From NCBI GenBank assembly GCA_041545745.1, contig CP168152.1, forward strand, positions 3,532,001 through 3,596,000: DNA of 64,000 nt. Direction: 5' to 3'. This DNA is from Stenotrophomonas indicatrix (GTDB lineage Bacteria; Pseudomonadota; Gammaproteobacteria; Xanthomonadales; Xanthomonadaceae). This document shows, piece by piece, positions 4,816-24,586 of this stretch (its first letter is position 1; each line of letters opens with the position of its first letter). The notes under the pieces are model-generated. The model was not told where the DNA came from. It worked only from the letters and a program-made list of their open reading frames with translations, and made no database searches. A program made the translations under genes and the position numbers.

Positions 4816-5202
4816 ATGTCCCTCGCCTCGACCCTGCTCCGTGTCGTGCTCATGCTCAGCCTGTTGCTCAACGGGCTGAACGCGGCCATGGCCAGCGGAC
4901 ACGAGGAAATGGGCCGCATGGCCCACGCGATGACCTCGGCGATGACCGACGAGGGCGACGCGGACTGCCACCACCACGCCGGCATGACCGCCGACGAAGC
5001 GCCACAGGCCAAGGCCCCCGCCCATGACGCGCACTGCCAGATCAAGGACTGCGTGCGCAGCTGCGCGCAGCACCCGCTGCTGGCGGTGCAGGCACTGCCG
5101 TTCCTGGCCGGCCCCGGTCTTTCCCTGACTCCGCAACCGATGCCTGCCAACGGCCGCCCGGCACCACTGTTGCCGCCGATCTCACGCCCTCCCATCAACT
5201 GA
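4816..5202 (+). CDS. copL: CopL-like metal-binding regulatory protein
   Basis: A 128-residue protein with an N-terminal hydrophobic signal segment (LLRVVLMLSLLLNGLNAAMA) and a His/Cys/Met-rich body (DADCHHHAGM; HCQIKDCVRSCAQH), ending in a Pro-rich tail. It lies immediately upstream of copA and copB in the same direction, the arrangement of the xanthomonad copLAB locus. In Xanthomonas, CopL is needed for copper-induced expression of copAB; whether it acts as a protein or a leader peptide is debated. The assignment rests on position, size and Cys/His content. Start at 4816; no strong ribosome site is visible. Confidence 0.82.
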   Translation: MSLASTLLRVVLMLSLLLNGLNAAMASGHEEMGRMAHAMTSAMTDEGDADCHHHAGMTADEAPQAKAPAHDAHCQIKDCVRSCAQHPLLAVQALPFLAGPGLSLTPQPMPANGRPAPLLPPISRPPIN

Positions 5203-5277
5203 TCCAACACGCCTCGTGCGCGCTGCGCACTGAAGCCGGCCCTGTGCTGGCGTCCTTCCGTGTTTGGAGTCACCACC

Positions 5278-7092
5278 ATGAGTACCCGTATTCCTCCCGG
5301 CCCGGGCGCTGTGCCCATGCCGTCGCGCCGTCTGTTCGTGCAGGGCATCGCTGCTGGCGGCGTGGTCGCCGGCATCGCCGCGGCCAGCATCCCGCAGCGC
5401 GCGCTCGCTGCCGCCTCTGCCGCGCCACGCCTGGCCGGCGCGCCGGCGGTCATCAGCGATACCCGCGTCGAACTGGCCATCGGCGAGTCGCTGGCCAACT
5501 TCACCGGCCGCACCCGCCCGGCGATCACCGTCAACGGCTCGCTGCCGGCACCGATCCTGCGCTGGCGCGAAGGCCAGACCGTGGACCTGTTCGTGCGCAA
5601 CACGCTCGGCCAGCACCCCACCTCCATCCACTGGCACGGCATCCTGCTGCCGGCCAACATGGATGGCGTGCCCGGCCTGAGCTTCAACGGCATCGGCCCC
5701 GGCGAGACCTACCACTACCACTTCGATCTCAAGCAGTCCGGCACCTACTGGTATCACAGCCATTCGCTGTTCCAGGAACAGGCGGGGCTGTACGGCGCGC
5801 TGATCATCGACCCGGCCGAACCGGCGCCGTACCGGCATGACCGCGAGCACGTGATCATGCTGTCCGACTGGACCGACATGGATCCTGGCGCGCTGTTCCG
5901 GCGCATGAAGAAGCTCGCCGAGCACGACAACTACTACAAACGCACCCTGCCTGACTTCCTGCGCGACGCCCGTCGCGATGGCTGGTCGGCCGCGCTGTCC
6001 GACCGCGGCATGTGGGGCCGGATGCGGATGACGCCCAGCGACATCTCCGACATCAACGCGCACACCTACACCTACCTGATGAACGGGACTGCGCCGGCCG
6101 GCAACTGGACCGGGCTGTTCCGCAGTGGCGAAAAGGTGCTGCTGCGCTTCATCAACGGCGCGTCGATGACCTACTTCGACGTGCGCATTCCCGGCCTGAA
6201 GATGACCGTGGTCGCCGCCGATGGCCAGTACATCCATCCGGTCAGCATCGACGAGTTCCGCATCGCCCCGGCCGAAACCTACGACGTACTGGTTGAACCC
6301 AGCGGCCAGGATGCCTTCACCATCTTCTGCCAGGACATGGGCCGCACCGGTTATGCCGCCGGCACGCTGGCGGTGCGCCATGGCCTGCAGGCACCGATTC
6401 CGCAACGCGACCCGCGCCCGTTGCTGACCATGAGCGACATGGGCCACGACATGGGCGGCGGTGGCCATGGTGGCCACGACATGGCGGCAATGAAGGGCAT
6501 GGAAGGCGGCTGTGGTGCCAGCATGGGCCACGGTGCGCATGGCGGCGGCAGCGATGCCGCCAGCAAGGCACCAAAGCATCCGGCCAGCGAGCACAACAAC
6601 CCGCTGGTGGACATGCAGAGCTCGGCCACCGAGCCAAAGCTGGACGACCCCGGCATCGGCCTGCGCGACAACGGCCGCCAGGTGCTCACCTATGGTGCGA
6701 TGCGCAGCCTGTTTGACGACCCCGACGGCCGCGAGCCCGGCCGCGAGATCGAGCTGCACCTGACCGGCCACATGGAGAAGTTCTCCTGGTCGTTCGATGG
6801 CATTCCCTTCGCCGGTGCCGAACCGCTTCGGCTGAACTACGGCGAGCGCATGCGCATCGTGCTGGTCAACGACACCATGATGCAGCACCCGATCCATCTG
6901 CATGGCGTGTGGAGCGACCTGGAAAACGCACAGGGTGAATTCCAGCTGCGCAAGCACACCATCGACATGCCGCCCGGTACACGCCGCACCTATCGCGTAC
7001 GCGCCGATGCACTCGGTCGCTGGGCCTACCACTGCCATCTCCTGTACCACATGGAAGCCGGCATGATGCGCGAAGTGAGGATCGAAGAATGA
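5278..7092 (+). CDS. copA: Copper-resistance multicopper oxidase CopA
   Basis: A 604-residue periplasmic multicopper oxidase that probably oxidises Cu(I) and binds copper. The N-terminus carries a twin-arginine signal (SRRLFVQG, about residues 14-21). Copper ligand motifs are all present: HWHG and HSH in the first cupredoxin domain, and HPIHLHG and HCHLLYHMEAGM at the C-terminus. A Met/His-rich segment (about 380-420, MSDMGHDMGGGGHGGHDM) is typical of CopA. The start ATG at 5278 follows a TGGAG site; a GTG at 5260 is the alternative. It overlaps copB by 4 bases (ATGA), which indicates translational coupling. Confidence 0.95.
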   Translation: MSTRIPPGPGAVPMPSRRLFVQGIAAGGVVAGIAAASIPQRALAAASAAPRLAGAPAVISDTRVELAIGESLANFTGRTRPAITVNGSLPAPILRWREGQTVDLFVRNTLGQHPTSIHWHGILLPANMDGVPGLSFNGIGPGETYHYHFDLKQSGTYWYHSHSLFQEQAGLYGALIIDPAEPAPYRHDREHVIMLSDWTDMDPGALFRRMKKLAEHDNYYKRTLPDFLRDARRDGWSAALSDRGMWGRMRMTPSDISDINAHTYTYLMNGTAPAGNWTGLFRSGEKVLLRFINGASMTYFDVRIPGLKMTVVAADGQYIHPVSIDEFRIAPAETYDVLVEPSGQDAFTIFCQDMGRTGYAAGTLAVRHGLQAPIPQRDPRPLLTMSDMGHDMGGGGHGGHDMAAMKGMEGGCGASMGHGAHGGGSDAASKAPKHPASEHNNPLVDMQSSATEPKLDDPGIGLRDNGRQVLTYGAMRSLFDDPDGREPGREIELHLTGHMEKFSWSFDGIPFAGAEPLRLNYGERMRIVLVNDTMMQHPIHLHGVWSDLENAQGEFQLRKHTIDMPPGTRRTYRVRADALGRWAYHCHLLYHMEAGMMREVRIEE

Positions 7093-12860: not shown

Positions 12861-13036
12861 CTATCAAGCACGTTGTTTGCGCTCGCCCGTCGGCACCGTC
12901 CTGAATCGGTGCCGGCGGGCGATCCGTCGGCCTCTATGGCGGGCGGTGCGTGGGGGTCTTCGGGCCCGCCGGTCAATTGCTTGATGTCATTCCGGCTTGC
13001 AGCCACGCACCGTCCGCCACCCGTCTCAGACGGTGG
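12861..13036 (+). ncRNA. Structured leader RNA resembling the C4 antisense family
   Basis: Directly upstream of the 118-residue gene lies an elaborate fold. Hairpin 1 (12883-12922) has a 16-bp stem with one G-U pair. A 17-bp stem (12937-12953 with 13003-13019, one G-U pair) encloses a GGGTC-TTCG-GGCCC tetraloop hairpin (12954-12967). A small hairpin follows at 13021-13033. An 8-base segment of the enclosed region (12978-12985, TGCTTGAT) is complementary to 12863-12870 just upstream. The layout recalls C4 antisense RNA, which precedes icd/ant in phages P1 and P7. The family name is from memory; the structure is seen directly. Confidence 0.5.
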
Positions 13037-13066
13037 CAATCCCATCGCAGAGCCGAGGAAGCCGAG

Positions 13067-13423
13067 ATGACCGAACGTCCGCCCTATGCCTCATATGCCG
13101 CCAGCGTCAACGACGACGACGACAATCCCATACCCGAACTGAGCACCTTCCTGGGCTGCCTCGAACGCATCCGGGCGGGCGAAGGTGCAGACGGCCAGCC
13201 CTGGCCTGATGCAAGCCTTCCCGCAGGGCGCAGGGTGGCGCTGTCACGCCTGGAGCGGGCCGCCGTCGGCATGCTGACCGTGGCAGAGATGCTGCACGCC
13301 GCCGATCGCTGCCGATCGATGGCAACGCCGGACCGATATCTGGATGACGGCGTGGTCGAAGGGCTGTTCTTCGCCTGCCGCGGGCTGGCGGAACTGGTGT
13401 GCCGGGATATCCGGCCTGAGTAG
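13067..13423 (+). CDS. Hypothetical protein downstream of the structured leader
   Basis: A 118-residue acidic soluble protein I do not recognise. It has a run of four Asp near residue 16 and a helical C-terminal half (VALSRLERAAVGMLTVAEMLHAADRC, then GLFFACRGLAELV). No signal peptide or membrane segment. The start at 13067 follows a purine-rich GAGGAAG site about 9 bases upstream. Its position right after a C4-like RNA suggests post-transcriptional control, as for phage icd-type genes, but the protein does not resemble Icd. Confidence 0.7.
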   Translation: MTERPPYASYAASVNDDDDNPIPELSTFLGCLERIRAGEGADGQPWPDASLPAGRRVALSRLERAAVGMLTVAEMLHAADRCRSMATPDRYLDDGVVEGLFFACRGLAELVCRDIRPE

Positions 13424-13503
13424 GAACACCTGCACCACAATCCAGACCATACTCGGGCCGGGTTCGTCCCGAGTTCCATCGACACTGACACAAGGAGGTT
13501 CGC

Positions 13504-13812
13504 ATGTTGAATGCCATGATCATTGCCGCGCTGGCCGCAAGCCCGGCTGCTTCCGTGCCTTACGCCGACTGCCTGCTCGGCAACATCCAACCCGGCCTGT
13601 CCGACCGTGCCGTGCAATTGGTGCAGCAGGCGTGCGCCGCCAAGCACCCCGACAGCTTCATTGCTTCGCTGGAACTCGAGCGCAATTACAGCGCCCAGCG
13701 GCAGGCCCGGTTCGACGCAGAACGCGCTGCAGTGGAGCGTGCTGCGAATGCTGCCGCCAAGGTAGAGGCAGACCGCGAGACAGCCCGTTCCCAGGGCGCG
13801 AAGTCCAAGTAG
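13504..13812 (+). CDS. Small secreted hypothetical protein
   Basis: A 102-residue protein with a short hydrophobic N-terminus (MLNAMIIAALAASPAASV), probably a signal peptide, then YADCLLGNIQPGLSDRAVQLVQQACAAKHP with two Cys, then a charged Ala/Glu/Arg helix likely to form a coiled coil. The Cys-containing core resembles small Cys proteins of the VF_A0006 type, but only two Cys are present, so I leave it unnamed. Strong ribosome site AAGGAGG 6 bases before the ATG. An IS3-family element is inserted 13 bases after its stop, separating it from the hairpin terminator at 15174-15204. Confidence 0.72.
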   Translation: MLNAMIIAALAASPAASVPYADCLLGNIQPGLSDRAVQLVQQACAAKHPDSFIASLELERNYSAQRQARFDAERAAVERAANAAAKVEADRETARSQGAKSK

Positions 13813-13877
13813 GACTCCACGTTCCTGACCCGTCCTGCCATAGGTTGACACCTATGGGGTGGATGATCCGGCCGCCG

Positions 13878-14770
13878 TCAGGCGGCCAAGGACGCCCGGT
13901 GCATCGCATCGGGCGTCTGCATTTTAAGGGACAGGTGGGGGCGCTCGGCGTTGTAGATCTCCACTGCCTCAGCCACCATCTGCCGAGCCTGTCCCAGGTC
14001 CCGTGGGCGACGGAGCAGAAACTCGCATTTGAGGATCCCGTTGATCCGCTCTGCCAGAGCGTTCTGATAGCAATCGTAGCCCTCGGTCATGGAGCAGGTC
14101 AGGCCGTGCTTGGCATGGATCTTCTGATAGTTGTCCGAGCAGTACTGGATGCCCCGATCCGAATGGTGGATCAGCCGTTGCCTCGTTTTCCGGGTTTTCA
14201 GGGCCATCTCCAATGCCTGCGCGGTATGTTCGGTCTGCAGCGTCTCATTCACGCTCCAGCCTACGATCTTGCGTGACCACGCATCGGTAACAAGGCTCAG
14301 GTAAACGAACTTCCCATCTGTTGGTAGATAGGTGATGTCAGCCACCCACACCTGTTCGCAGCCACTGGGAACGATGCATCCTTCACCGGATTTGAGCAGA
14401 TTGGGATGCTTGCGGAAGCGATGATGGCTATCGGTCGTCTTGTGATACGCGCGGCGCTGCGGCACCAGCAAGCGCGCTTCTCGGAGCACGTCAAATAAAC
14501 GATCGCGCCCCAGAGCGATCCCCGCCGCCTGCAGCTTCGGCTCAATCAGATGGTGCAGCTTGCGCGTACCGACCCGAGGCTGGCGCGCGCGGCAGTCGCT
14601 CACCAGCGACAGTGCCGTAGCATCAGCAGCGTCTCGCCGCTGATGGCGGTGACCGGCCTGATAGAACGCCTGCCGACTGATGCCGAAATGGCGGCAAGCC
14701 CTTGCCACGCTTACGCCTTTGAGGCGCCCTTGCGTGAGGACTTGCCGGAAGGCTTTTTTACGATTTTTAC
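13878..14770 (-). CDS. IS3-family transposase OrfB (DDE integrase domain), made by -1 frameshift
   Basis: The rve-type catalytic subunit, produced as an OrfAB fusion of about 411 residues. After a short HTH_21 region (SVARACRHFGISRQAFYQ), the catalytic Asp residues are in VWVADITYLPTDG and HHSDRGIQY, and the Glu is in the NALAERINGILKCEF helix. The start given is approximate because the frame is entered by frameshifting, not from its own start codon. It ends close to the left end of the element. Confidence 0.9.
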
Positions 14771-15112
14771 CCCGTAATCCTCTTTGAGGACATCCACGAT
14801 GGCCTCGAACAACTGCGCCTTCTCGTTTGCCTCCCGCAACTGGACCTGCAGGGCCTTGATCTGTTGTTCCGGCGTCAGCGGCTTGGCCGCCCCGGCTTTG
14901 GGGACAGTGCTCATGGGAGGCAATGATGCCCCAGCTGACCAATCCTGCCGACCATGCCGACGAAGCCAGGAAAGCACCGTGCTGCGCCCTTGGATCCCAT
15001 AACGCTCCTGGGCCTTTTTGTAGGTCAGCTCCCCGCGCTCGACCTGGTCTACCACCGACAACTTGAAGGCCAGCGAGTAATCCCGTTGGCTGCGCCTGAT
15101 TGTTGATTTCAT
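14711..15112 (-). CDS. IS3-family transposase OrfA
   Basis: A 133-residue DNA-binding subunit. A helix-turn-helix occupies the first 60 residues (SLAFKLSVVDQVERGELTYK, then RYGIQGRSTVLSWLRRHG), followed by a leucine-zipper-like helix (EQQIKALQVQLREANEKAQLFEAIVDVL cut here by domain, residues about 85-113) used for multimerisation in this family. Alone it is expected to regulate transposition; the fused OrfAB is the transposase. The slippery heptamer lies near its 3' end. Confidence 0.92.
   Translation of the reverse strand: MKSTIRRSQRDYSLAFKLSVVDQVERGELTYKKAQERYGIQGRSTVLSWLRRHGRQDWSAGASLPPMSTVPKAGAAKPLTPEQQIKALQVQLREANEKAQLFEAIVDVLKEDYGVKIVKKPSGKSSRKGASKA
14753..14759 (-). other. Programmed -1 frameshift site A AAA AAG
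   Basis: On the coding (minus) strand the heptamer A-AAA-AAG occurs in the OrfA reading GTA-AAA-AAG. Slipping by -1 joins OrfA to the OrfB frame (CGT AAA AAA GCC). This is the standard slippery sequence of IS3-family elements. Confidence 0.85.
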
Positions 15113-15173
15113 TGAACATTCCTTTTCCAGAGGGAAAAGGTGTCAACCCAATTCAGGACGGGTCATCCGCAAC

Positions 15174-15204
15174 AAAAAAGGCACCGCTTCGCGGTGCCTT
15201 TTTC
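15174..15204. terminator. Bidirectional Rho-independent terminator
   Basis: An A-tract, stem GGCACCGC/GCGGTGCC with a TTC-type loop, and a T-tract, so it can act on both strands. It was probably the original terminator of the chromosomal tRNA-Lys (minus strand) before the island split that locus, and of the gene at 13504-13812 before the IS inserted. Confidence 0.85.
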
Positions 15205-15223
15205 TATGACCGAAGTCATTGCC

Positions 15224-15273
15224 TGCAATGGTGGGCCGTGATGGATTCGAACCATCGACCAAAAGATTAAAAG
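15224..15273. repeat. Left att repeat: 3' fragment of tRNA-Lys
   Basis: Fifty bases identical to 20873-20922. It contains the tRNA-Lys 3' part from the anticodon loop to CCA (15229-15273, minus strand) but then diverges (AATGCTAGC), so it is a tRNA fragment, not a functional gene. This is the original chromosomal tRNA 3' end, displaced by the island. Confidence 0.92.
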
Positions 15274-15490
15274 AATGCTAGCAAACACAATGGAATCAGT
15301 GCTTTACGCCACTTTTTCTTCCGGCCAGAAGGCATGAAACCCCTTCCACAGCTACCCTGAGCCGGGAATTTTTCCAGCCCACAGTGTAGATCGCAGACCC
15401 TGAGATCAGCTTCGGGCACCCTACGCTTACATAGACTTGCTGGCGATCTGCCGCTAATTTCAGACACTGGTGGAACACAGGAGGTGGTTC

Positions 15491-16024
15491 ATGCTTAGCC
15501 GGCTGGTGAGGTTGCTGCTGGCTCTTACGGCAATCGCGCCCATAAGCGTCTCAGTAGCTTACTCGTATGCGACGCGCGCTCATAACATCCAACTTGCGGT
15601 GATTGCAGCCCTTACCTGCGTTCTACTAGGCGCGCTTAGCCTTGCGATTATTCGCAGGTGCCAGCGCGATCTTGAGCGCGTGCCCGTCAAGATTGAAAAG
15701 GCGAAGAATGCAGACAAGGAAGTGATTGGCTTTTTCGTCGCGTACGCACTCCCACTAGTGTTTCGTGGGCAGGCGTCTGCCGAGCTCGGAGAGTGGATCT
15801 TGGCGGCCGGAATGCTTCTATTTGTGCTGTGGAGCACCAACTCGCTACAGGTGAATCCTGTACTCGGGCTCTTCGGCTACCATTTCTACGAGGTTGAGAC
15901 GCAGGACAAGATCACCTTCTTGCTGATCACTAGAACGAAGATCACAAAGGTTGGCGCCATCAAGGAGATCGTTCAACTTAGCGAGTATGGAATTCTCGAA
16001 GCATCACCCAGAAAAGGAATTTAG
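15491..16024 (+). CDS. kwaA: Kiwa anti-phage protein KwaA (membrane subunit)
   Basis: A 177-residue inner-membrane protein with four hydrophobic segments: LVRLLLALTAIAPISVSVAY, LAVIAALTCVLLGALSLAI, VIGFFVAYALPLVF and WILAAGMLLFVLWSTN. It then has the cytoplasmic tail NPVLGLFGYHFYEVE...FLLITRTKI, which fits the KwaA family. Kiwa is a two-gene phage-defence system in which KwaA and KwaB form a membrane complex that responds to phage infection and blocks phage DNA functions. The ATG at 15491 follows a strong AGGAGG; the frame is open 7 codons further upstream. kwaB starts 2 bases after its stop. Confidence 0.85.
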   Translation: MLSRLVRLLLALTAIAPISVSVAYSYATRAHNIQLAVIAALTCVLLGALSLAIIRRCQRDLERVPVKIEKAKNADKEVIGFFVAYALPLVFRGQASAELGEWILAAGMLLFVLWSTNSLQVNPVLGLFGYHFYEVETQDKITFLLITRTKITKVGAIKEIVQLSEYGILEASPRKGI

Positions 16025-16026
16025 AT

Positions 16027-16887
16027 ATGCTGAACTTGTTTGCACTTACATCAAACCCGAACGCACGAGTGCTTCGCCTGCCTTTGAGTGCACCGCTTCA
16101 ACAGACCATCACCGATGTATTCACGCAGCAGTACAACAACTTTAGTGCGGGCGTCACTGCCCACGTCCAGTTTGATGGGAGATACCGACCCGACAACGAT
16201 GAGCTCCTCGTCATCGACAACTACGTCGATATAGACAATTTGATCGGAGCCACCGTCAACCCGATGGCTGTGCCAACCTTCGATGAAAATGTGCACTCTC
16301 TTGACGACGTCAAAGCACTTTTCACCGGCTCGCCAGATGGGACGCCTCGGGCCCTCGTCCAGCTATTCGAGCGCAGAAGGTTGATCGCAAAAGGCCTTTC
16401 TCTATTCTTTACAGGCAACACATTCCAGAAAGTAGAAGCTGGCGGACTCACGCTGGACACTAGGCTGCTAGCGGTCCTGGAAGGCACGAGGCTCACGTTT
16501 CAGAGCTTTCACTTCCTGCGCAGAGTGTTCGCCGTCAGCGAATGTTACAAGGAGGCAACTGCCCAAGAGGTCGTCGAGTTCGCCAATCACCCCGTTCTTT
16601 ACTCGCCCGACCCGCAGGCATTTGAACGGTCAGCGAACTCGATAATCAGGTCAAAGATCGGCTTGATACTTCAGTCAGATGTCCTTAGCAAGCACACTCC
16701 CCAGGAGCTTGCAGCCGCTGCGTTGGTTTTTAAGCTGGACATACCTCTGACTCAGGACGGCCGCATCGAACTGCCGGAAGCGCCTGCTGACCTTCGCCGT
16801 CTCTTGCGGTTCTTAGATGAGGACTATTACGAGTCTCCTCTCTCGCGCACCCATTTCATCTCCAACTCGAAACGGGTAGCAGACTAG
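16027..16887 (+). CDS. kwaB: Kiwa anti-phage protein KwaB (DUF4868)
   Basis: A 286-residue soluble protein matching the DUF4868/KwaB pattern: an N-terminal half with YVDIDNLIGA, then LFERRRLIAKGLSLFFTGNTFQKVEAGGLT (read here as the family's conserved centre, about 120-150), FLRRVFAVSECYKEA, and a C-terminal LRFLDEDYYESPLS ending in NSKRVAD. In Kiwa the KwaB subunit is the DNA-binding effector partner of KwaA. The 2-base gap to kwaA and an AAGGAA site before the ATG indicate one operon. A GC hairpin at 16899-16918 may terminate it. Confidence 0.85.
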   Translation: MLNLFALTSNPNARVLRLPLSAPLQQTITDVFTQQYNNFSAGVTAHVQFDGRYRPDNDELLVIDNYVDIDNLIGATVNPMAVPTFDENVHSLDDVKALFTGSPDGTPRALVQLFERRRLIAKGLSLFFTGNTFQKVEAGGLTLDTRLLAVLEGTRLTFQSFHFLRRVFAVSECYKEATAQEVVEFANHPVLYSPDPQAFERSANSIIRSKIGLILQSDVLSKHTPQELAAAALVFKLDIPLTQDGRIELPEAPADLRRLLRFLDEDYYESPLSRTHFISNSKRVAD

Positions 16888-16898
16888 GGTAGCAACAT

Positions 16899-16922
16899 GG
16901 AGCCGGCACGATGCCGGCTCTC
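16899..16922 (+). terminator. Hairpin after kwaB
   Basis: Stem GAGCCGGC/GCCGGCTC with a short loop, 12 bases after the kwaB stop, followed by TCCTCGG rather than a long T-tract. Possible weak terminator separating kwaAB from the next gene. Confidence 0.5.
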
Positions 16923-17107
16923 CTCGGGCGCGAGAAGCGTCAACTAGGTCAGACTAGGGACCTATCGACGCAAGCCCGACTTCGCGGACAAAAGAATCTA
17001 TAACGCCACGTTGTAGATCAATGCGACTGGCGCCGACTCCCTCGCAGCACTGCCTTGTGCGCTCCATTGGTGGATACTAAGCCCACCAACCAGTCTCACC
17101 AGGTCCC

Positions 17108-17662
17108 ATGATCTATTTCCCGCACGATCAAAATAGCGCAAGCACCGTAGCCATCTACCGAGGCATGACATTGCATCAGTGGAATACTCGGCAGGGAATC
17201 GCGCGCAAGGGATCCGAACGTGAGGCACAACTCTACGCGGGAGACACAGACGTCGGCGCAGGTGATGCTGACGTGTATGTCTCAAGCTGCGTTCAGAATG
17301 CTCTAACGTTCACAGCAATGGATTCCTCGACCAATAGGCTTAGCTGGCTGAGCTTTAGCAGCGATAGGAACGTTGCAACATTCTTCGCTCTCAATCAGCT
17401 GGACGAGTCTGACTCCGAAGGCGGAGTAGTCATCGAGACGAGCTTGGCACACCTTTGTGGACTTGGCATTCCGTGCGCCGACAACGATCGCAGAATTCCT
17501 TGGGAGCAAGAGATAGGCGTTGATCTCTTCAATCATCCAAGCTTCCCGGAATCAGCCATTATCAAGGTGCATTCAGTACCCTACTCGGAGCTTTGGCGTG
17601 CGGCATCGGCGCTTCAGAGTAGGTGGGGCGCCGCGAAATACACCCGACACGCCTACTTCTGA
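17108..17662 (+). CDS. Unknown island protein with ADP-ribosyltransferase-like motifs
   Basis: A 184-residue protein, no signal peptide or membrane segment. I do not recognise it by overall similarity, but it holds, in order, the three elements of the R-S-E class of ADP-ribosyltransferases: VAIYRGM (Arg near residue 18), WLSFSSDRNVATFFA (S-x-S region near 83-86, followed by the usual VAxxFA helix) and IPWEQEIGVD (E-x-E near 134-136), followed by a terminal strand AIIKVHSVPYSEL. This is inference from motif order only. It lies 220 bp after kwaB, with an in-frame TAA 30 bases before the ATG, so the start is fixed close to 17108. Ribosome site weak. Confidence 0.5.
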   Translation: MIYFPHDQNSASTVAIYRGMTLHQWNTRQGIARKGSEREAQLYAGDTDVGAGDADVYVSSCVQNALTFTAMDSSTNRLSWLSFSSDRNVATFFALNQLDESDSEGGVVIETSLAHLCGLGIPCADNDRRIPWEQEIGVDLFNHPSFPESAIIKVHSVPYSELWRAASALQSRWGAAKYTRHAYF

Positions 17663-18320
17663 GCAGTTGGGGGCGCAGCTCGACCTCCAGCAACTCTGCA
17701 CCAGTCTCACGGCCAGTGCATGATGAAGAAGCCATGCCGATGCTGCTTGCGTCCGATGCACCGCCCATGTAGCGATGCCGTATAAGCCGAGCCGTGAACA
17801 CGGCTCGCAACAACGCAGAGCAGCAGCTGCATCAGTGGCCAACTTCGCCGTTAGGCGGCCTGGGTGGGGGCTGCAAAGGCCTGTTACCCGTAGGGTTCGC
17901 AGGGCCGACAAAGGGCTGCGGGAAGCCTGCGCAGCCATAGCGAGCGAGGGTTCGCCGTTTGCGCGGGGGACGCAGAAAAATCACCCCATGAAGTGCGCAG
18001 GCGTTGCCGGGAGACGAGGGCCCATCACGAGTGCTGGGCGCACTGTGATCCGTTGCCAGGTCCGGATCGGGGCTGGAGAGGTCTGCGAGTCCTGGGCCTT
18101 TGATCGGGGCAGCCTCAAGGGCGTCCTTCCCCGCGGAACCCTGTCTGCCGCCATGACCCACAGTTCATCGCTTTGCTCTTCCGCTGTTCCAATCGCGATA
18201 GCACGCGCCCTTGCTCTCCACCGGCAATGCTCAGCGGCAACCTCAGTCATTCGGATATGATTGAGCCCTGAGGTTTGACCAGAAGGATTGACCTCATACC
18301 GCCGCCATCAGGAGAAGGGA
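17663..18320. other. Unassigned GC-rich stretch inside the island
   Basis: No gene is convincingly supported over 658 bases. Base composition is clearly GC-richer than the AT-rich cargo genes on either side. The best reading frame is on the minus strand (17981-18250, 89 residues, starting MTEVAAEHCRWRARARAIAI). It has no family features I can name and may be the stump of a gene from an integrative element. A small inverted repeat GAGCCGTG-AA-CACGGCTC lies at 17789-17806. Confidence 0.45.
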
Positions 18321-19388
18321 ATGTCTCAAGGCAACGAGCTAGCGTACGAGCAGTTCAAGAATATAGATCTATCGGACTCGTTCTTTGACAGCCTTAAGGC
18401 TGACTACGCAGAGTTCCCCACTTGGTTCCAAAAAAAGGCCGAGGATCGCGCATACATATTTAAGCGTGATCAGGGAGGGATTGACGGATTTCTGTATCTA
18501 AAGATTGAAGAAGGCGCTCTCAACGACGTGTCGCCACCGCTGCCACCCGCGCGACGCATAAAGGTGGGCACTTTTAAGCTAAATGCGATAGGCACAAAGC
18601 TGGGAGAGCGCTTTCTGAAGAAGGTGTTTGACCATGCAATCCATCACGACATCGCATTGATTTATGTCACAGTCTTCGAGAAGCACGAGGCGCTACTTCG
18701 ACTCTTCGAACGCCACGGCTTCATCCGCATTGCCCGGAAGAAGTCTAAAAACGGCGAAGAGCTAGTACTCCAGAAGGATTTCAAGGCACCTTATGTAAAC
18801 CCAGTGGCGAGCTATCCGAGCATTCCAATGGGCAGAAATCGCTGCTACTTGATATCTCTCTATCCCGAGTGGCACACGAGGCTGCTGCCCGACTCGATCT
18901 TACGAACCGAGAGTCAAGATTTGGTGCAAGACGTATCTCATACAAACAGCATCCACAAAGTCTATTTGGCGGCAATGAAAGGGACGGAGAGCCTAAGGCC
19001 AAATGACGTTATTGTAATCTACAGGCCCGCCCCCAAAGGTGGACGACCTTGGTTCGAGTCCGTTGCGACGACCATAGGAGTAGTGGAAGAGTCGCGCCAC
19101 ATTGATAGCTTCCAGTCCGCAGAAGACTTCAAAGCGTACTGTAGCCCCTATAGCATTTTTACGATCAAAGAGCTGGACGAGTTTTGGAAGTACAAGAGGT
19201 ACCCGAACATCTTCAAGTTCACCTACAATGTCGCCCTGAAGAAGCGGCCAAACCGTGCTCGCCTTGTCGAAGATGTAGGACTTGCAAAGGATGCTTACTG
19301 GGGGTTCATGCCCCTCAGCTTCGACCAGCTACATCACATTGCCCAACTAGGCGAAATCGATGAAAGTCTTATTGTCAATCAAGCCTGA
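18321..19388 (+). CDS. GNAT acetyltransferase fused to a PUA/EVE-like domain
   Basis: A 355-residue two-domain protein. Residues about 40-160 look like a GNAT fold: RIKVGTFKLNAIGTKLGERF, where the acetyl-CoA loop region lies, then ALIYVTVFEKHEALLRLFERHGF and ELVLQKDF. Residues about 170-345 look like a PUA-superfamily (EVE/ASCH-like) domain with SLRPNDVIVIYRP and a following TTIGVVEE strand. The start at 18321 follows GAGAAGGGA; an upstream in-frame start exists at 18288. It overlaps the ASCH gene by 29 bases, so the two are co-translated. PUA-type domains bind RNA or modified bases, so an RNA- or base-directed enzyme is a reasonable guess. Confidence 0.68.
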   Translation: MSQGNELAYEQFKNIDLSDSFFDSLKADYAEFPTWFQKKAEDRAYIFKRDQGGIDGFLYLKIEEGALNDVSPPLPPARRIKVGTFKLNAIGTKLGERFLKKVFDHAIHHDIALIYVTVFEKHEALLRLFERHGFIRIARKKSKNGEELVLQKDFKAPYVNPVASYPSIPMGRNRCYLISLYPEWHTRLLPDSILRTESQDLVQDVSHTNSIHKVYLAAMKGTESLRPNDVIVIYRPAPKGGRPWFESVATTIGVVEESRHIDSFQSAEDFKAYCSPYSIFTIKELDEFWKYKRYPNIFKFTYNVALKKRPNRARLVEDVGLAKDAYWGFMPLSFDQLHHIAQLGEIDESLIVNQA

Positions 19389-19734
19389 ATATGCCGAGAA
19401 AATTCTCGACGGTCGTAAGCGGTTCGAGTTCCGCAAGGCACTGCCGAAAGCTCAAGGCATTACGACGGTTGTGATCTACGCGACTATGCCGGTCGGAAAA
19501 ATCATCGGCGAGTTCGAGGTCGACCGATGCATCTCCCATAAGCCGAAAGACTTGTGGGCCATGACACATGAATTCTCCGGCATTACAAAGTCGTTCTTTA
19601 ATTCTTACTTCAAGGGTCGAACAACGGCACACGCGTTCAAAGTGAAGTCAGCTAGACGTTACGACTCCCCTCTCAGCTTGACCGAGGTCATCGGCACGAC
19701 CTCGGCTCCTCAGTCTTTCCGATATCTATCGTGA
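19360..19734 (+). CDS. ASCH-domain protein
   Basis: A 124-residue protein with the ASCH (PUA superfamily) signature at its start, LLSIKPEYAEKILDGRKRFEFRK (Lys/Glu/Arg nucleic-acid-binding pattern), then VVIYATMPVGKIIGEFEV and a C-terminal helix. Its start lies inside the end of the GNAT/PUA gene (29-base overlap), so expression is coupled. ASCH proteins bind RNA or modified nucleosides, and some cleave acetylated cytidine. With the acetyltransferase next to it, a toxin-antitoxin or modification/recognition pair is possible but unproven. Confidence 0.75.
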   Translation: MKVLLSIKPEYAEKILDGRKRFEFRKALPKAQGITTVVIYATMPVGKIIGEFEVDRCISHKPKDLWAMTHEFSGITKSFFNSYFKGRTTAHAFKVKSARRYDSPLSLTEVIGTTSAPQSFRYLS

Positions 19735-19775
19735 TTCGGCTAGGGCCAGTTGCAGCCGCCCCTAGACCCCAAACG

Positions 19776-19803
19776 AAAGGCCACCCGATGGTGGCCTTTG
19801 CCA
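19776..19803 (+). terminator. Rho-independent terminator after the ASCH gene
   Basis: Perfect palindrome AAAGGCCACC-CGAT-GGTGGCCTTT, 41 bases after the ASCH stop. The A and T ends of the stem make it usable from both directions, so it may also receive transcription from the minus-strand phage remnants. Confidence 0.8.
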
Positions 19804-19842
19804 TGATGAACGTAGAGCTGATTGTTGGAAGGTGTCTGCCAA

Positions 19843-20195
19843 TCACTCAGCAGCCGCCTCGAAGTAATGCTGAGTCATCTCGATTTCGGTCCAGCCGTAG
19901 CCCATCTCGTGTGCAGCGACCAAGGTGGTGCCGCTGCCAGCGAACTGGTCAAGCACAAGGCCACCCTCCTCACATATTCTCACCAGCTGCCACATCGGGT
20001 CGGTGGGTTTGCCGGTCATGTGGTGCTTGTCGGCCTTGCGCACGTTCTCGCCGATCACACGCGGCAACACTGGAGCGCGGCGGCATGCACGCCACCGCTG
20101 GCGTACGGCGGATCAGTGATAAGGGCGTCGAAGCTCGCGGCCGGCAGGGTAGGCCGGGCGTTCAACGCATCGCCGTGGACCAGTTCGTTCTTCAT
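19843..20195 (-). pseudogene. Phage DNA methyltransferase remnant (internal deletion, frameshift)
   Basis: Two pieces of one N-6 adenine/N-4 cytosine methyltransferase lie on the minus strand. The first (from the ATG at 20195) reads MKNELVHGDALNARPTL and the catalytic ALITDPPYASGG, then stops near 20055. The second, in another frame (19843-20070), reads VIGENVRKADKHHMTGKP, then LDQFAGSGTTLVAAHEMGY, the SAM-binding motif. The middle of the enzyme is missing. Such genes are common in P2-like and other temperate phages of xanthomonads. Not functional as it stands. Confidence 0.85.
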
Positions 20196-20261
20196 GGGCA
20201 GAGCCTTCTTCGTGGCGTCGCTCGCGGCACGATCCGAAGCAGCGGCGGGGGCGTGCTTAGC

Positions 20262-20552
20262 GACGCGAGCATGTCGTCACGGGTAACGCCCTTGATGCCA
20301 GTGAATTCATCCTTGGCCGCCACTTCGCTGACCGGGATCAGCGTCAACCCAACTTTTCTGCCGCCCGCGAATGGACGAACAGATTACGGAAGTTGCCAGG
20401 GCCACGGGACTGCCGCAGCGCCTCGCGCAGATTGTCCACTTCACCGCCCTCGGACTGACTGTCGGTCAGGTGCAGGATAGAACCGGCGTGCGAGCCGTTG
20501 TTGCAATACTTGCGGCGGAACAGCGTCGCGGATTCGTGGAGCAGCGCGGACT
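20262..20552 (-). pseudogene. P2-like phage portal protein (gpQ) fragment with a frameshift
   Basis: The minus strand reads LLHESATLFRRKYCNNGSHA, then a stretch ending GPGNFRNLFVHS, then in another frame LTLIPVSEVAAKDEFTGIKG and VTRDDML. This order (ESATLFRR...NGSHAG...GPGNFRNLF...IPVSEVAAKDEF...RDD) is that of the portal protein of P2-like phages. A single base lost in a run of C/G (near 20366; TCGCGGGCGG where TCGCCGGGCGG is expected) explains the frame change. The N-terminus and C-terminus are gone. It joins the methyltransferase remnant near 20261 and the integrase tail near 20553. Confidence 0.82.
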
Positions 20553-20555
20553 AAG

Positions 20556-20811
20556 CCCCCGGCATCCATTCCGGCAGTCCGCACTCGACAGTGCCTGGCA
20601 GCGCTTCATTACCGAAGCGGTTCGCGTTGGGGTGATCTCCAAGGACGAACGCTTCGCACTTCATGGCTTGAAACACCGGGGCATCACAGATGGCGACAAC
20701 AAGGCTGCCGGCGGTCACGTTACCGAAACGATGCGGCAGCGCTACGACCATGAACTGCCAGTGGTTCAACCGCCCGGCAAGAGGAACGCACTTGAGCGTG
20801 GAACCACTTAA
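20556..20811 (+). pseudogene. C-terminal remnant of a tyrosine integrase
   Basis: The last ~85 codons encode SALDSAWQRFITEAVRVGVI, then FALHGLKHRGITDGD, GGHVTETM and RQRYDHELPVV. The order H-x-x-K/R, GH and a nucleophile Tyr matches the end of a phage tyrosine recombinase. The reading frame continues upstream to 20371 only because it crosses the antisense of the portal fragment. The catalytic N-terminal Arg is missing. Its position next to the tRNA-Lys att repeat is where the phage integrase would be expected. Confidence 0.75.
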
Positions 20812-20838
20812 TTTTTCCGGCAATTTTTCCGAAGACAC

Positions 20839-20862
20839 GAAAAAGGCGCCGCAAGGGCGCCT
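20839..20862 (-). terminator. Terminator of the reconstituted tRNA-Lys
   Basis: Read on the minus strand: stem AGGCGCC/GGCGCCT with a short loop, then TTTTT, 16 bases after the tRNA 3' end. It differs from the older terminator at 15174-15204, so it was probably brought in with the island. Confidence 0.8.
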
Positions 20863-20872
20863 AAGTCATTGA

Positions 20873-20922
20873 TGCAATGGTGGGCCGTGATGGATTCGAA
20901 CCATCGACCAAAAGATTAAAAG
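20873..20922. repeat. Right att repeat within tRNA-Lys
   Basis: Fifty bases identical to 15224-15273, covering the tRNA-Lys from the anticodon loop through CCA and 5 bases beyond. The island supplies this copy, restoring a full tRNA after integration. Confidence 0.92.
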
Positions 20923-20953
20923 TCTTCTGCTCTACCGACTGAGCTAACGGCCC
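20878..20953 (-). tRNA. tRNA-Lys (anticodon UUU)
   Basis: A 76-nt cloverleaf including an encoded CCA. The acceptor stem GGGCCGT pairs with ACGGCCC, the D-arm is GCTCAGTCGGTAGAGC, the anticodon loop is CTTTTAA (UUU), and the T-arm is GATGGTTCGAATCCATC. It is the integration target of the island, and its 3' part is repeated at 15229-15273. Confidence 0.97.
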
Positions 20954-21127
20954 ATGCAAGGCCCCGGCCTTTCGGCGGGGTGGGCATTCTACCGTACTTT
21001 TCGGGGCTGGGTGAAGCCGGAGATCCACGAGGTTGCCGACCAGCGGCCGCCACTACCCCGGCTGCGGGCCTCTAAACCATTCCGCCACGCGCCGCATCTC
21101 ACCTGCGCCCCTGCCCCGGAGCGATGG

Positions 21128-22087
21128 ATGCGCCTGCCACTGCCGCTGATGCTCGCCCTGCTGCTGCCGTTCGCCGCCTCTGCCGCAGCGCCCACACAGG
21201 TGCGGACCGACGATATCGACCGCTTCTGGGCTACCTACGATGCGGTGCTTGCCCAGCCCGATGCCGCGCAGCGGGTGGCCCTGATCCAGCAGCGCTACAT
21301 CGATCCAGGCAGTCCCGGCCTGCATGCGCTGATGAAGGTGCGCAACTACACCGCCGCCGAGTACGCCGACGCCATGCTCGCCTGGCCGCGCTTCTGGTCT
21401 TCGGTGCGGCCGCTGACCGCCAACGCACGGCAGGCCAGCGCCACGCTGGAGCGGGATCTGGCGGCGTTCCGCAGGCTCTACCCCGCCCTGCGCCCGGCCA
21501 GCATCACCTATGCGGTGGGCGTGCTGCGCACGGGCGGCACCACGCTGGGTAACCAGGTGCTGATCGGCGCGGAGATGGCACTGGGCGATGCAAGCGTGGA
21601 TGTCAGCGAACTGCCGGAGCCGTTGCGCAGTCGCCTGCGGGTCTTCTACGACAGCAATCCCGGTGCGAACAACGCACAGAACAACCTGCATGAGTACGTG
21701 CACACCCAGCAGCGCGAGACCACTGGTTCGCTCGCGCAGTACGCGGTGCGCGAGGGCGTGGCCGAGTACGTGGCCGAGCGGATCAGCGGCCGTCGACCGG
21801 CGCTGCCACTGTACATCTATGGGCCGTTACATGAATCGGAGATCCGCACTCGCTTCATCACCGAGATGGACGGCGATGACCTGGACAACTGGCTGTACAA
21901 CAGCGCCCGCAATGCGTTCGGGGTGAGCGATCTGGGCTACTACGCGGGGTATCGCATCGCGCAGGAGTACATGCGCCGGCAGCCGGATGAGCAGGCGGCG
22001 ATCGCACGGATGATCGAGCTGGATTACGAGGATCCTGCAGCGGTACGGGGGTTTATCGAGGCGTCGGGGTGGCTGCAGCAGCGGTAA
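21128..22087 (+). CDS. Putative secreted HExxH metalloprotease (DUF2268/GldB-like)
   Basis: A 319-residue protein with a Sec signal peptide (MRLPLPLMLALLLPFAASAAA). The zinc motif HEYVH (in NNLHEYVHTQQRE) is followed by a possible third ligand region in REGVAEYVAERISG, as in DUF2268/GldB-type zinc proteases. Length and the GYYAGYRIAQEYM segment fit that group. Substrate unknown. The ATG at 21128 is chosen because it starts the signal peptide and has GGAG upstream; the frame is open for 58 more codons with no sign of homology. Confidence 0.75.
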   Translation: MRLPLPLMLALLLPFAASAAAPTQVRTDDIDRFWATYDAVLAQPDAAQRVALIQQRYIDPGSPGLHALMKVRNYTAAEYADAMLAWPRFWSSVRPLTANARQASATLERDLAAFRRLYPALRPASITYAVGVLRTGGTTLGNQVLIGAEMALGDASVDVSELPEPLRSRLRVFYDSNPGANNAQNNLHEYVHTQQRETTGSLAQYAVREGVAEYVAERISGRRPALPLYIYGPLHESEIRTRFITEMDGDDLDNWLYNSARNAFGVSDLGYYAGYRIAQEYMRRQPDEQAAIARMIELDYEDPAAVRGFIEASGWLQQR

Positions 22088-22088
22088 C

Positions 22089-22178
22089 GCCGGGCCATGC
22101 CCGGCGCACAGTGCCAACCAAGGTTGGCACCTACCAGTATCAGACCACCCGGCGGTGCCGGGCCATGCCCGGCGGCCC
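22089..22178. repeat. Cluster of three short palindromes (SMAG-like)
   Basis: Three palindromes between convergent genes: CGCCGGGCCATGCCCGGCG (22090-22108), GTGCCAACCAAGGTTGGCAC followed by CTAC (22111-22136), and TGCCGGGCCATGCCCGGCGG (22155-22174). They probably act as a bidirectional transcription end for the protease gene and queC. Confidence 0.75.
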
Positions 22179-22183
22179 GCGTC

Positions 22184-22849
22184 TCAGGCGTACAGCGTCG
22201 GGTCGGCCACACCGGCTTCGGTGAAGCCCTGCGCGCGCAGACGGCAGGCATCGCAGTGGCCACAGGCCGCGCCGTTGGCATCGGCGTTGTAGCAGGACAC
22301 GGTCAGGCCGAAGTCCACGCCCAGGCGCACGCCTTCGCTGACGATCTGGCCCTTGCTGAGGAACTGCAGCGGCGCATGCACGGTGATGCCCGCGCCTTCC
22401 ACGCCCGACTTGGTCGCCAGGTTGGCCAGCGCCTGGAAAGCGGCGATGAACTCGGGGCGGCAATCGGGGTAACCGGAGTAGTCCACGGCGTTGACGCCGC
22501 AGAAGATGTCGTTGGCACCGAGCACTTCGGCCCAGCCCAGCGCCAGCGACAGCATGATGGTGTTGCGCGCCGGCACGTAGGTGACCGGGATGCCCTCGCC
22601 GCCCGCCTCGGGCACGTCGATGTCGTCGGTCAGCGCCGAGCCGCCGATGCTGCGCAGGTCCACGTCCACGGTCTTGTGCACGATCACGCCCTGGGCCTTG
22701 GCCACGCGCGCGGCCGCATCCAGTTCGGAGGTGTGGCGCTGGCCGTAGCGCACGCTCAGGGCATGCACGGCGAAGCCCTGTTCCTGGGCCATGGCGATGA
22801 CGGCGGCTGAATCCATGCCGCCGGAGAGAAGCACGACTGCCTTCTTCAT
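22184..22849 (-). CDS. queC: 7-cyano-7-deazaguanine synthase QueC
   Basis: A 221-residue enzyme that makes preQ0 from 7-carboxy-7-deazaguanine with ATP and ammonia, for queuosine in tRNA. The PP-loop ATPase motif [11 protein letters not shown] is at the start and a C-terminal zinc site (CYN..CGHCDAC) closes the protein; VPARNTIML and [18 protein letters not shown] are family signatures. It lies 77 bp downstream of queE on the same strand, so the two consecutive pathway steps are probably co-transcribed. Confidence 0.96.
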
Positions 22850-22926
22850 GGGTAAATCATCCGGTTTGGGGGAAAAGCCAGCACGCTGTCCCGCGCCGGA
22901 ACTACATCAAGGAACAACGGACGGGC

Positions 22927-23628
22927 TCAGCGGCCCGGTTCGTCATTCCAGAGAATCTTATGCAACTGCATCTGGAAGCGCACCGGCAGCCGGTCTTCCA
23001 CGATCCAGTCCGCCAGCTGGCGGGCAGTGATCTCGCCCTTGCTGGGCGAGAAGAACACCATCGTGCGCTGCACCAGCTGGTGCTCGACGACCATCGCCTT
23101 GGCCCAGTCGTAGTCCTCGCGGTTGCAGATCACGAACTTGATCTGGTCGCGCATGGTCAGCAGCGGCAGGTTCTCCAGCCGATTGCGCGCGACCTCGGCC
23201 GAGCCGGGGGTCTTGATGTCGACCACGCGCGATACACGCGGATCGACCGCGCTGACGTCCAGCGCACCGGACGTTTCCAGCGACACGTCGAGGCCGGCAT
23301 CGCACAGCTTCTGCAGCAGCACCAGGCAGCGCTTCTGTGCCAGCGGCTCGCCGCCGGTCACGCAGACGTGGCGCACGCCCTGCGCCTGCACATGAGCCAC
23401 GATGTCGTCGATGTCCCACCAGGTGCCGCCGTGGAAGGCGTAAGCGGTGTCGCAGTACTGGCAGCGCAGCGGGCAACCGGTCAGGCGCACGAACACGGTC
23501 GGCCAACCAGCGGTATCGGCTTCGCCCTGCAACGAGGTGAAGATCTCGGTGATCTTCAGGCGCGGCAAGGGTGATTGCACGATCTCGCTGGGCGTGGCAA
23601 CGGCGTTGGACGGAGTGACGGCGGTCAT
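22927..23628 (-). CDS. queE: 7-carboxy-7-deazaguanine synthase QueE
   Basis: A 233-residue radical SAM enzyme of the preQ0 pathway. The cluster-binding motif is CPLRCQYC (C-x3-C-x2-C), preceded by EIFTSLQGEADTAGWPTVFVR, and followed by VCVTGGEPL and VSLETSGALDV. The ATG at 23628 is chosen as the family start; 22 codons upstream are also open but overlap a short palindrome (23689-23708). Upstream on the same strand is ybgF, so the que genes end the long tol-pal cluster. Confidence 0.95.
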   Translation of the reverse strand: MTAVTPSNAVATPSEIVQSPLPRLKITEIFTSLQGEADTAGWPTVFVRLTGCPLRCQYCDTAYAFHGGTWWDIDDIVAHVQAQGVRHVCVTGGEPLAQKRCLVLLQKLCDAGLDVSLETSGALDVSAVDPRVSRVVDIKTPGSAEVARNRLENLPLLTMRDQIKFVICNREDYDWAKAMVVEHQLVQRTMVFFSPSKGEITARQLADWIVEDRLPVRFQMQLHKILWNDEPGR

Positions 23629-23688
23629 GGCAGACAATTCTTCATGGGGCGGGCGACGGATGTACCGACGCCGGAAACGAAAGCAGCC

Positions 23689-23708
23689 GAGCATGGGCTC
23701 GGCTCTAC
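23689..23708 (-). repeat. GTAG palindrome (SMAG-like) between ybgF and queE
   Basis: AGCCGAGCATGGGCTCGGCT followed by CTAC; GTAG is 5' on the minus strand. It sits in the only sizable gap of the tol-pal-que cluster and could reduce read-through or mark a processing site. Confidence 0.7.
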
Positions 23709-23767
23709 AGGAGGCTGCCGGGAGTCAACCCAGCGCCAGGGGGCGTATTGTACGCCCGGTCAGCGGA

Positions 23768-24586
23768 TCAGCGGATCTGATTGCCGAGGCGGATCGATTG
23801 CAGGCGGTCCTGCGCGGTTCGCGCGGCATCCGAGCCCGGGTATTGCGCCACGACGGTCTCCAGCGTCTGCTGGGCCTGGTCGACCTTACCCTCGCCATAC
23901 TGCGAGAGGCCGACCTTGAGCAGGCCACCTGCGGCCTTGTCGTGGGTGGGATAGCGCGAGAGCAGTTCGCGGAACTGGGACTCGGCCATCGGGAAATTGC
24001 GGGTGGCGTAATAGCTCTCGCCCAGCCAGTACAGCGCATTGGGGGCGTAGACGCCGTTCGGGTACAGCTCCAGGAAACTCAGGAACAGCTGCGCCGAATC
24101 ATCGTACTTGCCTGCCTTCAACGCATCGAAGGCCACGTTGTAGGACGTACGCTCGTCACCGGTGACGGCCAGGCTGCCCGGGTCACCATGGACGGAAGGC
24201 GGCCGCTCGGAAGTGGCCGCCGCTGCGGGTTTTGCCGGGGCTGCAGGAGCCTTCGGTGCGCTCGCCGGAACAGCAGGCAGGGCCGGGGCGGCAGAGCCCC
24301 CTTCCAACCGGTTCAGGCGGCTGTCCAGATCCAGGTACTGGTCCTGGGCGGACTGCTTGAGCTGGGCGTTGTCGTGCTGGAGTTGCTCGATCGAGGCCTG
24401 CAGGCTGGTGACCTGCTGCCGCAGCTGATTGATCTGGTTCAACAGGTCCTGGTTGGCACTGTTGTTGTACATCTGCTGCTCGAGCGAACCGACGCGGTCG
24501 GCCAGACTCTGACGTTGTGCATGCGCCGGTGCGGCAGCCACGAGGGCTGCCGCAACGACCAGCATCAGTTTGATGCCAAGGCGCAT
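23768..24586 (-). CDS. ybgF: Tol-Pal system protein YbgF/CpoB
   Basis: A 272-residue periplasmic protein that links cell-wall synthesis with outer-membrane constriction at division. It has a signal peptide (ending APAHAQ), an N-terminal coiled coil (about 25-95, LADRVGSLEQQMYNN and on), a Pro/Ala linker and a C-terminal TPR domain (YNVAFDALKAGKYDDSAQLF, then GESYYATRNFPMAESQFREL and so on). It starts 3 bases after the pal stop. Confidence 0.95.
   Translation of the reverse strand: MRLGIKLMLVVAAALVAAAPAHAQRQSLADRVGSLEQQMYNNSANQDLLNQINQLRQQVTSLQASIEQLQHDNAQLKQSAQDQYLDLDSRLNRLEGGSAAPALPAVPASAPKAPAAPAKPAAAATSERPPSVHGDPGSLAVTGDERTSYNVAFDALKAGKYDDSAQLFLSFLELYPNGVYAPNALYWLGESYYATRNFPMAESQFRELLSRYPTHDKAAGGLLKVGLSQYGEGKVDQAQQTLETVVAQYPGSDAARTAQDRLQSIRLGNQIR

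Follow-up and report, generated by a model that had tools for sequence, protein, structure and literature searches.

Organization of the tRNA-Lys Island

The 64,000-nt stretch of Stenotrophomonas indicatrix DNA analyzed in this study (contig CP168152.1, positions 3,532,001 to 3,596,000; hereafter, the window) contains a 5.65-kb island at a tRNA-Lys(UUU) gene that carries an adjacent pair of Kiwa defense genes together with fragments of a P2-like phage. The island is bounded by a 50-nt direct repeat whose two copies, attL (15224-15273) and attR (20873-20922), are 100% identical and spaced 5649 nt apart, and which is the sole direct repeat pair of at least 20 nt within positions 13000-24000. As a first-pass annotation of the window had noticed, the left copy corresponds to only the 3′ part of the tRNA, and the right copy lies inside the intact, reconstituted tRNA-Lys gene (20878-20953, minus strand; anticodon TTT) that served as the integration target. 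A terminator-like hairpin (20844-20862, minus strand) immediately follows the tRNA gene on its phage-facing side, and two arm-type repeats, AATTTTTCCG (20810-20831, plus strand), are shared with prophages of three related genomes (G021, G048, and G059). Similar repeats have been described 3′ of the integrase gene in a passage on the Stenotrophomonas phage Smp131 (PMC3931495).

From left to right, the island consists of attL, kwaAB, a predicted ADP-ribosyltransferase (ART) gene, a cos relic, a GevT/GevA gene pair, fragments of a methyltransferase gene and of the portal gene Q, a deletion junction, the tail of the integrase gene (int), and attR. All five cargo open reading frames (ORFs) are open, the three recognized phage genes (methyltransferase, Q, and int) are all broken, and a SRAP gene is represented by a 106-bp piece. 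These boundaries and gene identities, the deletion described below, and the contrast between open cargo and broken phage ORFs are evident at the nucleotide level, and the cargo may have been kept by selection.

A P2-Like Prophage Reduced by a Large Deletion

Among 50,697 phage records, the top DNA match to the island was the P2-like Smp131, for the methyltransferase gene and Q. The relics consist of the 3′ end of the SRAP gene (17725-17830, plus strand; 71.7% identity to G021_b 5637-5742, inside an ORF at 5091-5756 that matches Smp131 SRAP); a cos site (18000-18018) with 17 of 19 bases as in Smp131; two pieces of the phage DNA methyltransferase gene (19837-20195, minus strand; residues 1-42 and 153-234 of 236), which match Smp131 DNA; a portion of Q (20216-20580, minus strand; residues 141-262 of 311) that matches phrog_68 (E = 9.5e-11) and contains a stop codon and a frame change; and an int remnant (20576-20811, plus strand) encoding approximately the last 78 residues, of which 73 align to the C-terminus of the full-length G021 integrase at 97% identity. 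Integrase residues before ~320 are lost, including the counterparts of R241 and K264, two residues of the Smp131 enzyme named in the passage cited (PMC3931495). The portal, methyltransferase, and integrase-tail fragments proposed in the first-pass annotation were all recovered.

When compared to the G021 prophage, which has 36.3 kb between its att copies, the window aligned collinearly over 17725-20581, in five pieces, before jumping to the integrase end at 20576 and thereby skipping 30.7 kb between Q and int. The junction (20576-20581) consists of six near-identical bases on both sides, and smaller internal losses were found within the methyltransferase gene and Q. What remains of the methyltransferase gene, Q, cos, and int follows the P2-type order, collinear with G021; complete structural, replication, and integrase genes were not found, and because phage genes survive only as fragments we refer to the island as a remnant rather than a prophage. 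The order of methyltransferase and Q, the type of cos, and the repeats following int are also shared with Smp131 and its Xanthomonas relatives (Peduoviridae), and in the part of that report concerned the relatives are said to integrate at tRNA-Lys, whereas Smp131 itself occupies a tRNA-Thr site and carries other cargo; in the island, all that lay between Q and the int tail is gone (PMC3931495).

Taken as a whole, the island is very probably the grounded remnant of an Smp131-like P2 prophage at tRNA-Lys(UUU), in which one deletion left the defense cargo behind, in agreement with the decayed prophage envisaged in the first-pass annotation. Prophages of this kind are arranged as attL, cargo slot 1, cos, cargo slot 2, methyltransferase, and Q, and the stretch from Q to int houses the genes for lytic growth, replication, and immunity. 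One ~30-kb deletion, reaching from inside Q to inside int and joined at about six near-identical bases, would have stripped away the phage body and disabled the integrase, yet would have spared both slots because they lie on the attL side of Q. The residue would be a stacked defense island composed of KwaA/KwaB, a toxin-antitoxin-like GevT/GevA pair, and the predicted ART. A few observations weigh against this reconstruction: collinearity was assessed largely against a single complete-looking prophage, that of G021, in which gevTA is absent; a promoter scan of the island region returned 0 promoters, compared to a mean of 2.7 in shuffled sequences; and no P2-like phage carrying Kiwa was found among the phage records or 19 KwaB loci from elsewhere.

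Kiwa and the Remaining Cargo

The first gene of the island, kwaA (15491-16024, plus strand), encodes the Kiwa membrane component and matched the PADLOC KwaA profile with an E-value of 6.4e-60. Its longest ORF begins at 15470, although the true start is probably the ATG at 15491, which is preceded by AGGAGG. Adjacent to it, kwaB (16027-16887, plus strand) encodes the DNA-binding component (DUF4868; PADLOC KwaB, E = 1.2e-88), and the kwaAB pair predicted at 15491-16887 in the first-pass annotation is therefore upheld by both profiles. The Pfam KwaB score fell narrowly under its cut-off (25.4 vs. 26.3 bits); in sequence searches of solved structures, KwaA matched 9mrg weakly (E = 0.026) and KwaB matched none. 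In the portion of the published work that concerns mechanism, KwaA is a membrane sensor and KwaB a DNA-binding protein (PMC12904381). The island resembles that system in its two-gene operon and profile matches and differs in that its KwaA and KwaB are divergent. KwaB was present in only 1 of 91 genus genomes, so that the island is known as one copy, and in 2 of 297 family genomes, the second being a weak partial match. Two phage records, a Pf inovirus and a tailed Klebsiella phage, encode KwaB. A term search of the main text of a S. maltophilia defense-system survey (PMC11680222) did not return the word Kiwa, and the one Kiwa passage of PMC9122126 refers to P4-like satellites. Literature listings for GevA/GevT, for PDC-M11, and for P2-like/tRNA-Lys/remnant/Stenotrophomonas contained no description of the island at hand.

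What the first-pass annotation had left as further unknown cargo was identified as an ART-like ORF and a GevT/GevA (PDC-M11A/B) pair. The former (17108-17662, plus strand; slot 1) has 13 homologs, the only named one of which is consistent, as is the Smp131 match, with Stenotrophomonas as the source; it conserves R18, S82, and W132-E135, recalling the R-S-E pattern of ADP-ribosyltransferases. The top fold matches of its structural model, which has low to moderate confidence (mean pLDDT 64.8), were NarE and Tpt1/KptA, with E-values no better than 7.4e-3 (none ≤0.001), and the ORF is accordingly described as a predicted ADP-ribosyltransferase only. A 64% identical relative sits between the contig end and cos in a viral contig on which attL is not included; P2-like head genes are also on this contig, and a 91% identical integrase is carried at its other end. 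The gene does not look like a third component of Kiwa, since none of the 19 KwaB loci holds a relative.

Slot 2 contains a GevT-like gene (PDC-M11A; 18321-19388, plus strand; PADLOC E = 6.9e-136) followed by an overlapping GevA-like gene (PDC-M11B; 19360-19734, plus strand; PADLOC E = 4.6e-48) with an ASCH domain (Pfam E = 2e-8), so that M11A and M11B genes are adjacent as expected of GevTA/PDC-M11. The first part of the GevT-like protein matched GNAT weakly, under the Pfam cut-off, and a sequence search matched GevT to no solved structure. The pair resembles the annotated GevT/GevA of Escherichia phage PhiR47_2 (PV340567) in gene content, order, and overlap, with 45.6% identity to the GevT stretch; the surrounding region of PhiR47_2 is lambda-like, unlike the island. 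GevT relatives occur in 14 phage records, in one of which the pair is annotated as toxin and antitoxin, and literature listings for GevA/GevT contained no paper under the two names. As in the window, GevT-GevA lies directly before methyltransferase-Q in four of six IMG/VR loci (the other two showed no P2-like genes), and in the P2-like phage SopEPhi a gevTA pair is found two ORFs before Q. A second pair in the genus, with GevT 73% identical, occurs away from tRNA-Lys in G088 (L133 5177-6590), beside a gene that we take from its translation to be guaA-like.

The P2 hotspot is reported to hold defense genes in a slot flanked by the replication and portal genes, at least in the section of PMC9519451 that treats it. 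The island likewise has defense genes in the slot before the portal gene, and differs in being a decayed prophage of another genus. The cargo may still defend the cell.

The tRNA-Lys Locus in Related Species

A query with the tRNA-queC flank matched all 91 genus genomes, some only in part, and the left flank was compared over up to 20 kb for 80 of the 90 other genomes. Thirteen of the 80 sites were empty, as they lacked a second att copy and had host sequence at a distance of 66-142 bp from the tRNA, and 14 held other short att-bounded islands with a second att copy 1.9-8.7 kb away. In three genomes (G021, G048, and G059), a full-length integrase gene lies beside the tRNA and another att copy at a greater distance; of the 18 Smp131 proteins tested, 16, 14, and 16, respectively, were matched. 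We term these prophages complete-looking because the frames of individual genes were not verified. In G074 and G020, a related integrase (interrupted by one stop codon in G020) is accompanied by a second att, while the other 17 Smp131 proteins had no match, and the remaining 48 sites were left unassigned. Given the empty sites and prophage alleles in relatives, together with the Kwa profile matches, the identification of the island as a prophage remnant was not refuted.

Slot 1 (attL to cos) holds other genes in the three complete-looking prophages, including a TIR-domain PDC-S35 candidate in G048. An element of G064 carries PDC-S33 and PDC-S67, and a remnant in G019 (L039 12211-18902), whose relics of Q and int meet at a different junction, encodes ShosA and ShosT. 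In these three genomes, to which the PADLOC scan of sister elements was confined, 5 of 10 scanned proteins matched a PADLOC family. The G019 remnant also holds an AAA-like ATPase and a DUF4365 protein. A deletion inherited by both the window and G019 from a common ancestor was considered. Independent deletions are more likely, if not proven, because the junctions differ, the methyltransferase pieces of the window have no match in G019, and the portal and integrase pieces resemble other phage copies at least as closely (portal: L195, 89.5% vs. G019, 88.3%; integrase: L170, 94.4% vs. G019, 91.9%).

Outside the island, ~58 bp from attL, lies a transposon-like element (13826-15165). Its 28-bp ends show 86% complementarity, and a 3-bp target duplication (TCC) may be present. 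It is presumably IS3-like, and it is not present at the empty site of G040.

An Integrase-Truncated Island Found in Several Species

Not all islands at this tRNA look defensive, since an att-bounded island of ~2 kb with an integrase tail, whose genes we take from their translations to be NmrA-like and HxlR-like, was found at tRNA-Lys in five species (L054, L057, L060, L062, and L066). Over its length this NmrA/HxlR island is 94.0-98.5% identical between species, compared to 82.3-93.9% for the right flank and 77.0-94.8% for the alignable portion of the left flank (488-4,104 bp out of 5 kb), and it exceeds both flanks in nine of ten species pairs. The exception is G042-G041 (island 94.8%; flanks 94.8 and 93.6%). 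Between G037 and G041, the island is 99.5% identical over 1,722 bp, falling to 74% with gaps near the integrase end, and the flanks are 66% identical over the initial 250 bp to the right of the tRNA and 43-50% over the initial 1.5 kb on the left. In two partial viral contigs of IMG/VR, L195 (1402-3484) and L196 (1-1823), this island is followed immediately on its right by P2-like prophage sequence, with which it shares one att; the left flank of L195 had no match in the flanks of four species. All seven copies of the NmrA/HxlR island are without one of the two arm repeats present in the complete-looking prophages, and it was therefore probably damaged before it spread. The NmrA/HxlR island appears to have moved horizontally between species, likely with a phage as its vehicle, although homologous recombination may also explain the likeness. 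Since an integrase-truncated island looks horizontally spread, loss of the integrase by itself does not make an island a fossil.

The integrase remnants at tRNA-Lys begin at residues 317-351 in eight lineages counted (5e-7 under uniform endpoints), or in eight of nine when G084 is included (4e-6), the uniform endpoint being a rough null. For this count the window start was taken as 317, from the junction, rather than 305 as in the integrase comparison, and the five NmrA/HxlR islands were entered once (the G041 copy begins at 378); G032 (weak match), G028 (piece separated from the tRNA by 1.3 kb), and, at first, G084 (pieces from residues 91 and 238) were omitted. Partial integrases with earlier start residues occur at other sites. 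Short C-terminal integrase pieces of the same family are found away from tRNA-Lys in G021, G044, G031, G045, G049, G022, G075, and G055, a hint of further remnant islands at other tRNAs.

Discussion

The relics in the window indicate how the phage body was lost; how Kiwa came to the island is a separate matter. We infer delivery of Kiwa by the phage, as opposed to a later entry into slot 1. In P2-like phages, relatives of GevTA and of the ART-like gene occur in matching slots, whereas none was found for Kiwa, and delivery by the phage is thus argued from position alone, as no P2-like phage with Kiwa was found. It is possible, though rather doubtful, that Kiwa instead entered the prophage or remnant after integration, with no part played by the phage in its delivery. 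Consistent with a later entry, none of the 19 KwaB loci elsewhere (11 genomic, 8 viral) has P2-like structural genes in the stretch retrieved (SRAP is weakly matched in three), the nearest KwaB proteins, at 58-60%, are in Oxalobacteraceae and Aquabacterium genomes, and the content of slot 1 differs among the complete-looking prophages. That same variability, however, which extends to the TIR-domain candidate, marks slot 1 as a variable cargo space in relatives, and within the island kwaAB is not bracketed by any repeat of 20 nt or longer. The first-pass annotation had seen the island as a fossil of how Kiwa becomes fixed in a chromosome; the decayed P2-like remnant that keeps Kiwa stands, and fixation and entry with the phage go beyond what was shown.

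A second alternative, which we regard as unlikely, is that the Kiwa island is a phage-derived cis-mobilizable element, carried along when a related P2-like phage inserts next to it and the two are excised jointly, or moved by an integrase supplied in trans. Such elements (CIMEs) and their tandem accretion were defined for integrative and conjugative or mobilizable elements in the part of PMC5704250 that sets out the model. The Kiwa island is CIME-like in keeping attL and attR without an integrase, and it also retains both arm repeats; the signs of movement, all indirect, come from the NmrA/HxlR island, for which tandem accretion is seen and whose behavior fits the published model, and the vehicle here would be a P2-like phage. 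The greater similarity of that island than of its flanks across five species, its position beside prophage sequence in L195 and L196, and the clustered integrase starts all favor mobility. Each of these is qualified by the results above: the flanks of G042-G041 are as alike as the island, the G041 integrase end is unlike the others, both viral contigs are partial with the L195 left flank unmatched, and the count of starts carries the omissions and rough null described. Moreover, none of the signs of movement concerns the Kiwa island, which is known as one copy only, and a search of its genome found no second P2-like portal or G021-type integrase.

The window cos also carries two substitutions unseen in 12 phage and prophage cos sequences, and four of five remnants are altered at a cos position invariant among those 12. 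In a leave-one-out comparison, three of six distinct phage or prophage cos sequences also had a private change (p = 0.18), so that the cos comparison alone is weak. With one copy known and its cos mutated, we retain the grounded remnant as the preferred explanation. In the bolder, tentative proposal, att-bounded islands with a dead integrase are left by P2-like phages at tRNA-Lys and pass from one species to another as passengers of P2-like phages that arrive later; the Kiwa-GevTA-ART island would be a defense-loaded member of this class. An intact P4-, PICI-, or PICMI-like phage satellite, in spite of the size, att repeats, and cos relic, is highly improbable and was set aside because the island has no full-length integrase of its own and its cos is mutated; general profile scans, with no dedicated satellite search made, recognized no satellite gene among its ORFs.

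As a grounded remnant, the island offers one readable junction at which the geometry of a P2 prophage would let a single deletion turn a prophage into a defense island, and the same tRNA in related species shows empty, complete-looking, and decayed states for comparison. With the NmrA/HxlR island apparently crossing species beside P2-like phages, the choice between grounded remnant and passenger becomes testable. If the island were a passenger, defense systems could spread on phage remnants that look dead. Judging from these comparisons, phage remnants at tRNA-Lys need not be dead fossils.

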